DNA from: Glycomyces sambucus | GTDB lineage: Bacteria; Actinomycetota; Actinomycetes; Mycobacteriales; Micromonosporaceae | DNA: 64,000 bases | Direction: 5' to 3' | Assembly (NCBI RefSeq): GCF_900102815.1 | Contig: NZ_FNGF01000001.1 | Location: 703,443 to 767,442 of the forward strand | Part shown: one piece after another, positions 51,380-55,937 of the stretch | Layout of the letters: each line of letters starts with the position of its first letter | Position numbering within the stretch: position 1 is the first letter of the stretch | The notes under the pieces: generated by a model | The model's input: the letters and a program-made list of their open reading frames with translations, nothing else | What the model was told of the DNA's origin: nothing | The model's database searches: none | Position numbers and translations under genes: made by a program

Positions 51380-52567
51380 TCAGCCCTTGACGCAGACGAC
51401 CTGGCGGAGGCGGGCGGTGATCTCCACGAGGTCGGACTGGGCGGCCATGACCTCGTCGATGTCCTTGTAGGCGCCGGGGATCTCGTCGATGACGCCGGGG
51501 TCCTTGCGGCACTCGACGCCCTCGGTCTGGGCGATGAGGTCCTCGGCCGTGAACCGCTTGCGGGCGGCGGTGCGGCTCATCCTGCGGCCGGCGCCGTGCG
51601 ACGCGGACTCGTAGGCGGCGCCGTTGCCGAGGCCGCGCACGATGAAGCTCGAAGCGCCCATCGACCCGGGGATGATCCCCATGTCCCCCAGCCCGGCCCG
51701 GATGGCGCCCTTGCGGGTCACCAGGAGCTCCAGGCCGTCGTGGGTCTCCTCCGCGACGTAGTTGTGGTGGACGGAGATCTCGGGTTCGAAGCGGGCCCTC
51801 TGGAACTTCTTCTTGACGACCTGGCGCAGCAGCGCCATCATGACGGCCCGGTTGCGGCGGGCGTACTCCTGCGCCCAGAACAGGTCGCGCCGGTACGCCT
51901 CCATCTGGGGCGTGTCGGCGATGAACACCGCGAGGTCGGGGTCGGGCAGGTCCGTGTTGTGCGGCAGACCCTTGGCCTTCTCGATGTGGTGCTGGGCGAG
52001 GGCGTTGCCGATGTACCGGGAGCCGGAGTGGAGCATGAGCCACACCTGCCCATCGTCAGATAGGCATACTTCGATGAAGTGGTTGCCGCCGCCCAGCGTG
52101 CCGAGCTGCTTCGCCGCCTTCGCCTCGGCCCGGCGGGCCGGGGACTGGGCGAGCTCGCCGAAGCCGGACCAGAACTCGTGCCAGCCGTGCAGGCCGGTCT
52201 TGAGGTGGCCGGTGTCGACCGAGCTCTTGTGCATCGCCTGGCCGACCGGGATCGCGGCCTCGATCTTCGAACGCAGGTGCCCCAGGTCGTCGGGCAGGTC
52301 CTCGGCGGTCAGCGACGTCCGCTGCGCGGTCATGCCGCAACCGATGTCGACCCCGACCGCGGCCGGGGAGACCGCGCCGCGCATCGCGATGACCGAGCCG
52401 ACCGTCGCGCCGATCCCGTAGTGGACGTCGGGCATGACCGCCACGCCGTGCACCCATGGGAGCTTCGCGATGTTGTACAGCTGGCCCTTCGCCTGGGGCT
52501 CGACGGCGTCGACGTCGCCCCACAGGCGGATCGGAGCCGCCTTGGACTCGAGGTCGGTGAATGACAT
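51380..52567 (-). CDS. rtcB: RNA-splicing ligase RtcB
   Basis: 395-residue RtcB, which joins 2',3'-cyclic phosphate or 3'-phosphate RNA ends to 5'-OH ends with GTP and Mn. Metal and GMP residues are seen in MPDVHYGIGATVGSV, GVDIGCGM, GGGNHFIEV, HSGSR and the SASHGAGR loop carrying the guanylylated His. Normal length. No rtcA or RtcR-type activator is next to it. It lies 102 bases downstream of the channel gene on the same strand, with its own upstream room for a promoter. Confidence 0.95.
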   Translation of the reverse strand: MSFTDLESKAAPIRLWGDVDAVEPQAKGQLYNIAKLPWVHGVAVMPDVHYGIGATVGSVIAMRGAVSPAAVGVDIGCGMTAQRTSLTAEDLPDDLGHLRSKIEAAIPVGQAMHKSSVDTGHLKTGLHGWHEFWSGFGELAQSPARRAEAKAAKQLGTLGGGNHFIEVCLSDDGQVWLMLHSGSRYIGNALAQHHIEKAKGLPHNTDLPDPDLAVFIADTPQMEAYRRDLFWAQEYARRNRAVMMALLRQVVKKKFQRARFEPEISVHHNYVAEETHDGLELLVTRKGAIRAGLGDMGIIPGSMGASSFIVRGLGNGAAYESASHGAGRRMSRTAARKRFTAEDLIAQTEGVECRKDPGVIDEIPGAYKDIDEVMAAQSDLVEITARLRQVVCVKG

Positions 52568-52669: not shown

Positions 52670-54898
52670 TCAGGCGAAGACGATCCAGTAGGTCAGCGCC
52701 GCACCGACGACCACCGCGGGATAGGCGATCCGGGAGCCGATCGTGAGCCACTTCAGGCGCCGCTTGCGGCCCTTCGCGGCCCAGGAGGAGCCGACGAGGT
52801 CGATCACCAGCAGGCCCACGCAGATCAGGATGAACAGGTAGTACAGCCACTCGATCGCCACGGTGTAGCTGATCGCCGGGAGCACCCCGGTGACCGAGTT
52901 GAGCATGACGGCGCTGGAGAGGATGCCGGTGATCGCCATCGACACCCGCGAGGTCACCGCGTCGTACCCGAGGAACAGCGACACGTACGTCGCCATCACC
53001 AGCAGGCACAGCGGCAGCAGGTTCTTCACCAGGAACCCGCCCACGTCCCGCCGCACCTGGAGGTCGGTCACGAACTGGCTGTAGTAGAGCCCGCCCGCCG
53101 CGTCCGCGCTCGGGTCGCCCATGTTCGCGGTGGTGCCGACGGTCTCGGCGGTGAACAGCGCCTGGTCGACCCGCCAGTTCGGGATACGGTCGATCGTCGC
53201 GCTCGCGTCGCCCGCGCTCGCCAGCCGCTCGGCCTGGGACTGGGCGCGCACGGCGGCGTCGAGGACGTAGACCACGCTGCTGTCGGGCAGGGTCCGGTTC
53301 TGGAGCACGATCGGCAGGTGCTGCACGTCGAACGGGAACCGCCGGAACTCCAGCTCCGCCTTGAAGGTCCCCTCCACGTGGTACAGCCGGTACTTCCTCT
53401 CCCCGACCTGCTTGGCCTCCAACGGGTCCCCGAGCGACAGGCTCTTGTCGGCGGAGTTGGGGAACCACACGTCGAGCACGTCGTCGCCGCCGGTGTAGTT
53501 GAACCATATGAACATGTCCGCCGAGAACGTCCCCGCCTGCGTGTCGAGGTCGCGGATCTCGTTGATGTTCACGCCGGTGCTGACGATCTGGGACGGGACG
53601 AGGACCTCCTCCTCGAACTCGACCACGGTGCCGTCGGCGGCCAGTTCCCGCCCGGCGACGGGCTCGTACGGGACGAGCTGCACCGGCGCCGAGACCGGGC
53701 GGGTCCCGCTGAAGACGCCCATGCGGACCGGCCGCACCAGCGTCCGGTCGTCGAAGTACAGCGGCCCGGTCAGGCCCGCGACCGCGGTCTCGGGCGAGTC
53801 GGTCGCGGCCCACGCGTCGCGCAGGAGCTCGCGGTCGGCAGCGCGGTCGCCCGGTTCGAGGCTCGCCCCCGCGAGGCCGCGGGCGATGAGCGTGACGGCG
53901 TCGCTGCCGGTGACGGCGGGCCAGTCCGGGACGTACCCGTGGGTGCGCACGAACGCGAGCAAGAACTCCAGCGCCCCACCGGAGAGCGAGTCGGTGAGCA
54001 CCGGCGCGGTCGCGTACACGGGCGCGGCCAGCGCGGCCTCGTCGGCGCCGCCCGCGGTGAGCGCGTCGTGGACCTCGGCGGTGAACGCCTCGGAGCTGAG
54101 CTTGTCGCCGCCGATGACCGGCTCGGTGACCCCGGCGGCGCGCAGTGCCGGGATGAGCCGCCCGGCGGTGTCGGGCCGCAGGCCCAGGACGATCGCGCCG
54201 CGGTCGGGGTCGGCGGCGATCGCGGCGGCGGCGGCGTCGAGCGCGGCGTCGGTGTCCCCGGCGAGGTCGATCGCGGTGTCGGTGGCGGTCCCGGTGAACG
54301 CGGAGGTGAAGCCGCCGTGGACGTCGCTGCCGTACCGGTCGTCGCCCCACACGATCGTGGCCCGGTCGAGCCCGAGGACGGCCTCCACGTAGGCGGCGAG
54401 GAAGGCGCCCTGCTGCGTGTTGTCGAAGATCCCCTGGAAGTACCAGGGCCGGTCCGCGGTGAGGTCGTCGCCGGTGGCGGAGGGGCTGATCGCGGGGATG
54501 CCGCCGGCGGCGTAGACCGGGGACGCGGCGATGGACGGGTCGGTGGTGGTGTGGCCGATGACGGCGAGCGCGCGGCCGTCGGCGGCGATCGCCTCGGCGT
54601 TGCGCTTGGCCTCGAGCGGGTCGCCGCCGTCGTCGTAGGCGAGGATCTCGACGGTGCGGCCCGCGATGCCGCCCGCGTCGTTGAGGCGGTCGACGGCGAG
54701 GCGCACGCCCGGGAGCAGGTCGGTCTCGATCCGGGTGGTGTCGTCGCCGCCGAGGTCGCCGGCGACGGCGATGTACACGGGTTCGGGCGCGGCGGCGCGG
54801 GCGATGAGGACCACCGCGAGGGCGGCGAGCGCGGCGAACACGAGCACTCCGGCGGCGGCGAGGGTCCAGCGCCTGCGGTGCGTCGCGGTCGGTGCCAT
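52670..54898 (-). CDS. periplasmic-binding domain fused to pentameric ligand-gated ion channel
   Basis: 742 residues. A signal/anchor helix (11-35) leads to a LivJ-type type-1 binding domain (about 40-410): GVRLAVDRLNDAGGIAG, AYDDGGDPLEAKRNAEA, GIPAISPSATGDDL. Next is a Pro-loop receptor extracellular domain (about 425-615): TFSADMFIWFNY, DVWFPNS, VEGTFKAELEFRR and the hallmark FPFD at 521-524 with Q526. The Cys-loop cysteines are absent (528 is Leu), as in other prokaryotic channels. Four helices follow: M1 622-643 (Pro629), M2 651-672, M3 676-703, M4 718-742. With R651 as 0', pore residues would be S653, T657, L660 (9' gate), V664 and N667. ATG start. It should be a ligand-opened channel whose ligand is set by either domain; the arginase-like gene upstream hints at amino acid or amine ligands (inference). 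Confidence 0.9.
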   Translation of the reverse strand: MAPTATHRRRWTLAAAGVLVFAALAALAVVLIARAAAPEPVYIAVAGDLGGDDTTRIETDLLPGVRLAVDRLNDAGGIAGRTVEILAYDDGGDPLEAKRNAEAIAADGRALAVIGHTTTDPSIAASPVYAAGGIPAISPSATGDDLTADRPWYFQGIFDNTQQGAFLAAYVEAVLGLDRATIVWGDDRYGSDVHGGFTSAFTGTATDTAIDLAGDTDAALDAAAAAIAADPDRGAIVLGLRPDTAGRLIPALRAAGVTEPVIGGDKLSSEAFTAEVHDALTAGGADEAALAAPVYATAPVLTDSLSGGALEFLLAFVRTHGYVPDWPAVTGSDAVTLIARGLAGASLEPGDRAADRELLRDAWAATDSPETAVAGLTGPLYFDDRTLVRPVRMGVFSGTRPVSAPVQLVPYEPVAGRELAADGTVVEFEEEVLVPSQIVSTGVNINEIRDLDTQAGTFSADMFIWFNYTGGDDVLDVWFPNSADKSLSLGDPLEAKQVGERKYRLYHVEGTFKAELEFRRFPFDVQHLPIVLQNRTLPDSSVVYVLDAAVRAQSQAERLASAGDASATIDRIPNWRVDQALFTAETVGTTANMGDPSADAAGGLYYSQFVTDLQVRRDVGGFLVKNLLPLCLLVMATYVSLFLGYDAVTSRVSMAITGILSSAVMLNSVTGVLPAISYTVAIEWLYYLFILICVGLLVIDLVGSSWAAKGRKRRLKWLTIGSRIAYPAVVVGAALTYWIVFA

Positions 54899-54997: not shown

Positions 54998-55041
54998 GCG
55001 CTACTGAAGGGCTTCGACAGCGCTATTGCAGGGCTTCCACC
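54998..55041. repeat. 22-base duplication over the arginase stop
   Basis: Two 22-base units (54998-55019 and 55020-55041; 18 of 22 bases identical, both starting GCGCTA). The second contains the stop codon (55023-55025) of the minus-strand arginase gene; the first has a stop at the same place, giving a copied gene end. Confidence 0.85.
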
Positions 55042-55937
55042 AGGAGGTCGGTGAGGGCCTTCGCGTACTCGCCGTCGGGGTCGTAGTCGGGGTCGAAGAC
55101 GGTGAGGTCCATGCCGGAGCAACGGTCGTCGGCGGCGCAGGTGGCGACGATCTGGCTGAGTTCGCCCAGGGAGATCCCGCCGGGCGCGGGGCCGTCGACA
55201 GCGGGCATGACCGAGGGGTCGAGGACGTCGACGTCGACGTGGAGCCAGAACGTGGCGACCTCGCCGAGCGCGTCGAGGGCCCATTCGGCGCTGCGGCCGA
55301 CGCCCCCGGCGCGCAGGGCCGGGACGGTGCGCAGCGCGATCCCGGTGGCCTCCAGTTCGACCCGGTGGGGGTCGTCGGCGCGCAGGCCGAGCATGACCAG
55401 GTGGTCGGTGTCGACGTAGGGGCGCAGGCCGCCGATGTCGGTGAGGTCGGGCTGGCCGCGGCCGGTGGCGAGCGCGAGCTCTTCGGCGGCGGCGGCGCCG
55501 ACGTACTGGGAGTTCCCGGGGTGGCGGAAGTCGGAGTGGGCGTCGATGAAGACGAGGCCGCGGGCCTTGCGGTCGCGCTCGGTGCGGCGGCGGGCGGCGA
55601 GGGCCGAGCCGAGGAGGATCGAGCAGTCGCCGCCGAGGACGAGCGGGAAGCGCCGCTCCTGCCACAGGCGCTCGACGCGGTCGGCGAGGCGCCGCGTGTA
55701 CTCGGCGATGGCCTTGGCCTGGCCGACGCCGTCGCCGGGGCGCCAGGGGGAGGCGTCGAAGCGCGGCGGGGTGAGGCAGCCGGCGTCGAGGGCGTTCAGA
55801 CGCGAGACGAGCCGGTGGTCCCGAAGGGCCCCAGGGGCTTTCGCGGCGCCGGGGACGGTGTGCGGGGTGGGCGGCCGGAGGCCGAGGTTCGAGGGCGCGT
55901 CGAGGACGGCCACGCGTCTCGTCCGAGTCGCCGGCAC
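55023..55937 (-). CDS. arginase/agmatinase family protein
   Basis: 304-residue ureohydrolase-fold protein. Two-metal motifs: FIDAHSDF (about 130) and HVDVDVLDPSVMPAV (about 232) are intact. The first metal motif is VLGGDCSILLG, with Cys in place of the usual metal-binding His of GGDHS, so activity or metal content may differ. Such GGDCS forms occur in actinobacterial arginase-like proteins of unproved substrate. GTG start after GGGAGGTGAG. It is upstream of the channel gene by 124 bases on the same strand. Confidence 0.85.
   Translation of the reverse strand: MPATRTRRVAVLDAPSNLGLRPPTPHTVPGAAKAPGALRDHRLVSRLNALDAGCLTPPRFDASPWRPGDGVGQAKAIAEYTRRLADRVERLWQERRFPLVLGGDCSILLGSALAARRRTERDRKARGLVFIDAHSDFRHPGNSQYVGAAAAEELALATGRGQPDLTDIGGLRPYVDTDHLVMLGLRADDPHRVELEATGIALRTVPALRAGGVGRSAEWALDALGEVATFWLHVDVDVLDPSVMPAVDGPAPGGISLGELSQIVATCAADDRCSGMDLTVFDPDYDPDGEYAKALTDLLVEALQ

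Follow-up and report, generated by a model that had tools for sequence, protein, structure and literature searches.

A Pro-loop channel with a LivJ-like binding domain in Glycomyces, and the probable passage of its sensor module to MscS-type pores

Introduction

Can a flytrap-like binding domain open a channel of the nicotinic-receptor kind? The question is raised by one gene in a stretch of 64,000 nucleotides of the actinobacterium Glycomyces sambucus (assembly GCF_900102815.1, record NZ_FNGF01000001.1, positions 703,443 to 767,442; the whole stretch is hereafter the window). Its product joins a LivJ-like type-1 periplasmic-binding domain (PBP, or PBP-I) to a pentameric ligand-gated ion channel (pLGIC), consisting of a Pro-loop extracellular domain (ECD) and a transmembrane domain (TMD) of four helices. 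How an ECD drives its pore has usually been studied, in nicotinic and GABA-type receptors, by mutation and by engineered chimeras. Here we report that the fusion gene is intact, that MscS-type pores, too, can bear homologous PBP-ECD pairs, and that the residues proposed to couple a Pro-loop ECD to its pore are kept with the pore and not with the sensor.

The accessible text of Tasneem et al. (2004, PMC549065) describes forms from M. magnetotacticum and B. japonicum carrying an N-terminal PBP-I ahead of the channel, draws the parallel with the NMDA receptor, and proposes ligand concentration and a role in chemotaxis; the architecture is therefore not new. An original prediction, made from the DNA alone, had presented the Glycomyces gene as a chimera paralleling the ionotropic glutamate receptors. 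The architecture is present and a LivJ-like domain does stand ahead of the pore, but neither the singularity nor the parallel survives as a novelty, since both the fusion and the NMDA comparison date from 2004 and the family comprises at least 18 sequences. That prokaryotic Pro-loop channels with extra N-terminal sensor domains are known as a class holds. In the searchable text of PMC549065 and of a second survey (PMC4795631) the string 'actinobacter' does not occur, and we regard the window protein as a new actinobacterial member of the architecture.

Results

An intact gene encodes the fusion

The gene is a single open frame on the minus strand; the plus-strand reading of 52670-54898 is a different open frame, and the original prediction had given no strand. 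It lies on contig 5 of the host assembly (5.6 Mb, 99.5% complete), and its features are as follows.

52670..54898 (-): whole gene, a PBP-I / Pro-loop ECD / four-transmembrane-helix channel fusion of 742 amino acids, with a GGAGGAGG ribosome-binding box directly 5'
54803..54859 (-): N-terminal hydrophobic segment, residues 14-32 (hydropathy 2.81 over 19 residues)
53723..54781 (-): LivJ-like type-1 periplasmic-binding domain, residues 40-392 (Pfam Peripla_BP_6, E 6.5e-27)
54473..54544 (-): residues 119-142, aligning T119 with LIVBP Ser79 and T142 with LIVBP Thr102 (alignment to 1z15, family conservation)
53615..53683 (-): variable PBP-ECD linker, residues 406-428 (57% identical between two Glycomyces species)
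53048..53614 (-): Pro-loop ECD, approximately residues 429-617
53327..53338 (-): FPFD tip of the Pro-loop, residues 521-524 (P522, D524)
53174..53257 (-): enlarged loop after the Pro-loop sheet, residues 548-575, common to alphaproteobacterial and MscS-type relatives
53048..53053 (-): R616-R617, the pre-M1 arginine, adapter partner of D524
52673..53047 (-): four-helix pore domain, residues 618-742 (Neur_chan_memb, profile, hydropathy)
52880..52948 (-): M2, from R651 (0') to residue 673, with S653 at 2', T657 at 6', L660 at 9', V664 at 13' and no acidic residue at -1'/-2' (prime numbers from the GlyR alignment and the usual convention)

That this is an intact gene fusing a PBP to a Pro-loop channel is confirmed at the level of sequence comparison. 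Pfam, NCBIfam and phmmer against the PDB all bear out the predicted layout, and the reading of the two halves survived the profile searches set beforehand as its check (Pfam, the PDB, and our own ECD and ECD+TMD profiles). For the front half the best PDB matches are branched-chain-amino-acid (BCAA) binding proteins (4gnr, E 9.6e-25, and 3.9e-25 in a second comparison); for the back half they include a GABA-A chain over residues 504-741 (E 5.6e-12) and GLIC-type chains. NCBIfam returns a BCAA-binding subfamily (9.6e-20), LIC (4e-17) and LGIC_1 (2.9e-7), each falling well short of the cut-off set for whole proteins, and Pfam places Neur_chan_memb at residues 628-701 above its cut-off (E 2.7e-7). 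Because the Pfam model of the pLGIC ligand-binding domain did not match the window protein, the ECD was tested with a purpose-built profile of eight sequences (A4), which matches the GLIC ECD (E 1.3e-7) and, by hhalign, the ECDs of stand-alone pLGICs (99.5%, 8.9e-23). An ECD+TMD profile (A3) matches a GLIC-GlyR chimera (E 1.1e-20); the R/K of position 0' and the Leu of 9' fall into register, placing Leu660 at 9' of M2 as foreseen; the alignment likewise upholds the FPFD motif at 521-524, and Pro629 is indeed in M1. By hydropathy the pore helices are M1 (about 619-645), M2 (651-673), M3 (685-703) and M4 (724-742). The only cysteines, Cys631 and Cys693, are both within pore helices, so there is no Cys-loop disulfide, as predicted, and the protein is no Cys-loop receptor in the narrow sense. 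The Pfam scan found no MS_channel domain in it, unlike in the MscS-type relatives described below.

Glycomyces artemisiae has a full-length, intact copy, 87% identical and likewise with the GGAGGAGG box ahead of its start codon. A simple count between the two Glycomyces genes, in which dS is rough because the third codon positions are 98% GC (GC3), gives a dN/dS of 0.31 overall, a sign of purifying selection: 0.49 for the PBP, 0.17 for the ECD and 0.10 for the TMD. The first 39 codons stand at 0.61, and the linker (406-428), at 1.26 over 23 codons, is the fastest-evolving part. With an intact and constrained orthologue whose frame is unbroken, a frameshift or chimeric assembly is not plausible, and there is no sign of the split gene that might have undone the prediction. 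By every sequence sign examined the gene appears to be working. The linker also differs in length by three residues between the two species. After the hydrophobic segment at 14-32 comes ARAAAP, which suits a cleavable signal peptide and a retained anchor alike; the N-termini of two alphaproteobacterial relatives (L072, L080) look cleavable by eye.

The same PBP and ECD occur on two types of pore

The sequences joining a PBP to a Pro-loop pLGIC pore (PBP-pLGICs) number at least 18 here, 16 of them in Pseudomonadota genomes, and at least 25 further Pseudomonadota proteins carry a homologous PBP and Pro-loop ECD on an MscS-type pore. In plasmids, tblastn gave matches in 211 records, not one of which covers more than 80% of the query; in nine from Azospirillum the match spans residues 39-547 or 41-585 and takes in the PBP and much of the ECD. 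The Azospirillum pores that were read are MscS, both by Pfam MS_channel_2nd and by MscS structures in the PDB (solved entries of which have seven chains), and MS_channel_2nd was over its cut-off in all 16 MscS-type proteins tested, out of the 25. The PBP is at least partly present in all 25. The window protein aligns with an Azospirillum MscS fusion through PBP and ECD without a break (33% over 531 residues), and with a second one at 29% over 622 residues, reaching residue 636 at the start of M1. Against solved pLGICs the MscS-type ECD gave no match (three hits up to E 10, the best, at 0.44, to an unrelated protein); we call it Pro-loop on the basis of the alignment with the window protein and of profile comparisons with the ECDs of PBP-pLGICs (99.6%, 3.7e-24) and of stand-alone pLGICs (97.9%, 4.4e-13).

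The ECD profile was also run on three sets of genomes, which are samples of untold kinship, so that the class fractions are not frequencies: (i) among 385 Alphaproteobacteria genomes (the class of Cypionkella record L007) six matched, four with PBP-ECD-MscS proteins (L065-L068), one of these also with a stand-alone channel (L071), one with a PBP-ECD-four-helix channel (L069) and one with a stand-alone channel only (L070); (ii) among 76 genomes of L069's order seven matched, with six complete PBP-pLGICs and one cut at a contig end; (iii) among 299 genomes of the same phylum 40 matched, and the 30 loci classed (10 matching genomes lie outside this set) comprise 18 of MscS type (L101 being the known L065), 10 of pLGIC type (L130 with only the tail of the PBP, L125 cut after M2) and two cut before the pore. 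The pore profile matched five of these 10 pLGIC rows at 1e-4, and the other five were classed by eye from (Y/W)PFD, a pre-M1 Arg and an M2 stretch. The Pfam pLGIC models have little sensitivity for this family: they fail to match L072, L120, L122 and L125, and reach L127 and L128 only below threshold; also below cut-off, NCBIfam LIC and LGIC_1 match L120 and L127, and LIC alone L072. Over ECD+TMD, the channels of the alphaproteobacterial order (L072, L078-L082) are 26-28% identical to the window protein.

The PBP-I + ECD + MscS loci include L047 (5845-8931), L048 (5896-9267), L062, L065-L068, L102-L111, L113-L118 and L121. Two such fusions, L048 and L076 (a fuller stretch of L068), end in a cyclic-nucleotide domain; the fusion of Azospirillum sp. 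B510, with an extra cyclic-nucleotide (cNMP) domain, carries no annotation but that of an ABC transporter substrate-binding protein. Some MscS-type genomes have several ECD matches, five in G1070. Stand-alone Pro-loop channels also occur on plasmids, in Azospirillum (L063, L064, both sharing replicons with PBP-ECD-MscS genes) and in Streptomyces (L049). One scan for viral relatives found none, and five hits in phage records match the PBP only. Seven flanking open reading frames from four loci showed no clear shared partner of the alphaproteobacterial relatives; methyltransferase genes lie beside L074 and L075 only.

The adapter residues follow the pore

According to the accessible text of PMC4795631, the FPxD aspartate forms a salt bridge with the pre-M1 arginine, and no residue apart from the proline is absolutely conserved. 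We tallied these adapter positions in the enlarged alignment, from which the duplicate L101, the near-copy L050 and the two proteins that end short of the pore had been removed. P522, D524 and R617 are each found in 18/18 PBP-pLGIC fusions; the stand-alone channels have P in 8/8, D in 7/8 and R in 6/8 (plus one K); on MscS pores P is down to 9/25, D to 0/25 (G in 24, S in one) and R to 1/25. The core ECD residues G442, W465, D547 and W575 are present in 18/18 PBP-pLGICs and 25/25 MscS types. In these alignments the adapter tracks the pore, not the PBP+ECD module. An adapter proposed as universal, invariant in the pLGIC group and nearly erased on MscS pores, amounts to an evolutionary test of the adapter idea, and 18 PBP-ECD pairs on their own pore type versus at least 25 on an MscS pore are a natural experiment on receptor-channel coupling.

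The sensor module probably changed pores once

In a tree with 38 free PBPs, which are search returns and not a full sampling, the PBPs of the first 16 fused proteins to be collected fall into one clade of their own (support 99/97). In an ECD tree built without the adapter residues, the 25 MscS types are a single clade (96/96) within the pLGIC types; this clade adjoins the Glycomyces and alphaproteobacterial channels (96/82 for the whole set), the other PBP-pLGICs falling outside. Those eight Glycomyces and alphaproteobacterial channels come together at 88/51 in that tree, and the grouping of Glycomyces with the alphaproteobacterial order receives 100/98, and 97/98 in a 41-row PBP+ECD tree; in a smaller ECD tree the Glycomyces channel sides with the MscS types instead. 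The approximately unbiased (AU) test does not reject a clade that unites every PBP-pLGIC (p 0.092 in the ECD tree, 0.247 in the smaller one). The 41-row tree, which leaves out L130 and L104, splits the two pore types weakly (69/54; 100/98 in a 16-row tree). The union of PBP-pLGICs and MscS types against the stand-alone pLGICs is only loosely resolved, at 87/62, with one stand-alone row on the wrong side in the larger ECD tree (AU p 0.466). Long branches were flagged in the PBP, ECD and PBP+ECD trees.

A single MscS clade next to the Glycomyces and alphaproteobacterial channels agrees with, but does not prove, one switch of the module from pLGIC to MscS pores. We consider it probable that PBP-I and Pro-loop ECD are a portable sensor that moved once, in an ancestor of one Pseudomonadota clade, from the pentameric four-helix pore to the unrelated MscS pore, that the adapter then decayed, and that the closest lineage with the original pore still in place is that of the Glycomyces and alphaproteobacterial channels. 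If so, this natural domain swap would separate the residues that sense ligand from those that drive the pLGIC gate, and the MscS proteins would be ligand-gated channels, perhaps dual-ligand and modulated by cyclic nucleotides.

The span from D547 to W575, 29 residues long in Glycomyces, ranges over 26-37 among the alphaproteobacterial channels and over 25-79 among the MscS types, and measures 22 in L120; it is 17-18 residues in the other PBP-pLGICs and 15-16 in eight stand-alone pLGICs. L120 (1132-3522, minus strand) is a possible intermediate: by path its ECD is nearest to the MscS types, yet it has YPFD, the pre-M1 Arg and a four-helix Pro-loop pore.

Discussion

What the channel might sense and conduct

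The PBP suggests a ligand of the amino-acid kind: its nearest solved relative is a BCAA-binding protein, and T119, T142 and D265 align with LIVBP Ser79, Thr102 and Glu226, which, with Tyr202, we take to be ligand-contact positions. Urea finds only weak matches to urea-binding models of NCBIfam (E 0.0012, far under their cut-offs). As for the pore, an acid at -1'/-2' is clearly missing in 16/18 PBP-pLGICs on our reading of the alignments (L120 being ambiguous), and stand-alone channels have one at -2' in 5/8. Since M2 has its Arg at 0' but lacks an acidic ring at -1'/-2', the pore leans towards anion-permeable or poorly selective, which is more likely than strict cation selectivity.

How the sensor might act on the pore

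We lean towards an intact Pro-loop ligand-gated channel with a second, upper sensor, in which closure of the PBP would be passed through the ECD to the pore. Five subunits would assemble with the PBPs outside the membrane, above the ring of ECDs; an extracellular amino-acid-like ligand would close the flytrap clefts; and the ECD, whether or not it too binds a ligand at the subunit interfaces, would relay this closure through the Pro-loop/pre-M1 adapter (P522, D524, R617) to M2. PBP and ECD would thus act as one module, as suggested by the related pairs found also on MscS pores, where decay has overtaken the adapter residues. Whether a flytrap domain can open a Pro-loop channel could be asked of the Glycomyces protein, a compact and intact case encoded by a single gene.

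Several findings weigh against this scheme or parts of it: (i) the PBP is less constrained than the ECD and the pore, which would also suit a modulatory role; (ii) the LivJ pocket pattern is uneven, the LIVBP Tyr202 position being L240 in the window protein, with S/T at 119 in 15/18 PBP-pLGICs, T at 142 in 9/18 and D/E at 265 in 9/18; (iii) no neighbouring gene hints at a ligand, since the adjoining arginase-family gene described below is backbone; (iv) the PBP-pLGIC L125 has Asp at -2', and the claim on selectivity is drawn from sequence alone; (v) the members of each group are related, so that the adapter tallies do not represent separate events, and in the MscS types the pre-M1 column aligns with difficulty (Arg in 0/8, then in 1/25); and (vi) AlphaFold2 models made from two-row alignments gave no usable structure (mean pLDDT 37 and 38, on this predicted confidence scale).

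Part of this evidence can be read otherwise. In the concentrator model of Tasneem et al. (2004), proposed for the PBP-I-fused architecture in the accessible text of PMC549065, the PBP would enrich the ligand, gating would take place at the ECD interfaces and the role would be in chemotaxis; the ECD, far more conserved than the PBP between the two Glycomyces species, fits this. However, all 25 MscS-type relatives retain the PBP though their ECD has lost the pLGIC adapter, and CheW found no match in the G. sambucus genome (the control was positive in 7/14 genomes), which makes classical chemotaxis unlikely here and leaves the chemotaxis-receptor role unsupported in this species. On balance we find the model unlikely. 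The lower constraint on PBP and linker would also suit an allosteric brake such as that of DeCLIC or the N-terminal domain of the NMDA receptor: the PBP would only modulate the channel, and the gating agent (protons, divalent ions or amines) would act at the ECD. The DeCLIC N-terminal domain does affect gating kinetics, according to the accessible text of PMC9897478 and PMC12664993, but such domains are beta-rich and not PBPs (same part of PMC9897478), and we rate this explanation as quite unlikely.

The ECD might, again, have no ligand site and chiefly support the PBP as a structural collar or adapter. PBP and ECD stay together on MscS pores despite the lost adapter residues, so the ECD must have some use other than working the pLGIC gate; on the other hand G442, W465, W575 and D547 are kept throughout both groups, a pattern that suits ligand binding as well as fold, and a mere collar seems to us improbable. 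As to misassembly, a frameshift or a decaying gene, the channel is carried by only 2/22 Glycomyces genomes (the window's own included) and is inserted between two backbone genes; against this stand the independent intact orthologue, the overall dN/dS of 0.31, the ribosome-binding box and 16 further PBP-pLGICs, which reduce all three to a very slight chance. A sensor that drives the pore through the ECD is the reading that we prefer.

Similarities to and differences from known systems

The window protein shares features with five kinds of known protein: (i) the PBP-I-fused ART-LGICs of the accessible text of PMC549065 have the same order of PBP-I, Pro-loop ligand-binding domain and four-helix pore and lack a Cys-loop; the window protein differs in its actinobacterial host and in remote identity only, the comparison of sequences being with relatives from an alphaproteobacterial order. 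(ii) GLIC, ELIC and DeCLIC have homologous ECD and TMD, with FPxD/YPxD and the pre-M1 Arg in common; the window protein differs by its enlarged loop before W575 and by having no acidic residue at -2', where GLIC has Glu. GLIC and ELIC are not known to possess a sensor domain at the N-terminus. In DeCLIC there are two, both beta-rich (accessible text of PMC9897478), where the window protein has a PBP. (iii) The PBP-ECD-MscS proteins (Azospirillum L047/L048 and others) are homologous and collinear in PBP and ECD, but have an MscS pore instead of the four-helix one and have lost the adapter residues. (iv) Ionotropic glutamate receptors also place a LivJ-like domain before a ligand-gated pore, but their agonist-binding domain is another and their pore unrelated, so the likeness is analogy only; a PBP-II domain with an inserted P-loop pore found no match in the window protein (Pfam, NCBIfam), whose pore is Neur_chan_memb. 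(v) LivJ and LivK belong to the same fold family and agree partly in the pattern of the ligand pocket, but there the binding protein is free and accompanied by ABC genes, whereas here it is fused to a channel; the 10 neighbouring open reading frames scanned include no ABC transporter gene. The Glycomyces host, to our knowledge, has no Gram-negative outer membrane. Our literature search, with most subscription papers outside its reach, found no later functional study of a PBP-pLGIC, and it returned no published description of PBP-ECD-MscS proteins or of a shared module.

Distribution and genomic neighbourhood in actinobacteria

In a sample of the family all 101 genomes match the query; among the matches listed, only the window gene extends past residue 421. 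In the Actinomycetota sample, Neur_chan_memb (PF02932) was over cut-off in the window genome only (1/396, with two weaker matches), and the ECD profile found four of the 396 genomes, namely the window's and three with stand-alone channels of 366-386 amino acids. Since PF02932 missed these three and was positive in 0/14 control genomes, its low counts are lower bounds.

Two genes flank the channel:

55023..55937 (-): arginase-family gene, upstream (PF00491, 1.6e-33), backbone neighbour
51380..52567 (-): rtcB gene, downstream (PF01139, 8.5e-126), backbone neighbour

In both the window and G. artemisiae the channel adjoins the arginase gene on the rtcB side. At five Glycomyces loci (L085, L088, L089, L090, L098) arginase and rtcB are direct neighbours, about 90-160 bases apart, without the channel; at L086, L091 and L092 they are about 0.5-1.15 kb apart with no channel match between, and at six others (L087, L093-L097) no arginase match lies within the short flank examined. 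The pair without the channel indicates that the channel entered between genes that were already neighbours, or else disappeared from the other loci, and that this neighbourhood is backbone. We considered a functional link to the arginase-family gene and rejected it, because the arginase-rtcB pair exists without the channel in five congeners. Base composition gives no sign of foreign origin or recent transfer: the channel has a GC of 0.728 and a GC3 of 0.983, and GC3 is 0.949-0.969 in five neighbour genes and 0.915 in a histidine-kinase gene. In G. artemisiae the rtcB gene beside the channel is cut to about its last third, roughly codons 280-394 (L052, 10768-11112), and a distant rtcB-like gene, 45% identical, lies elsewhere in that genome (L099).

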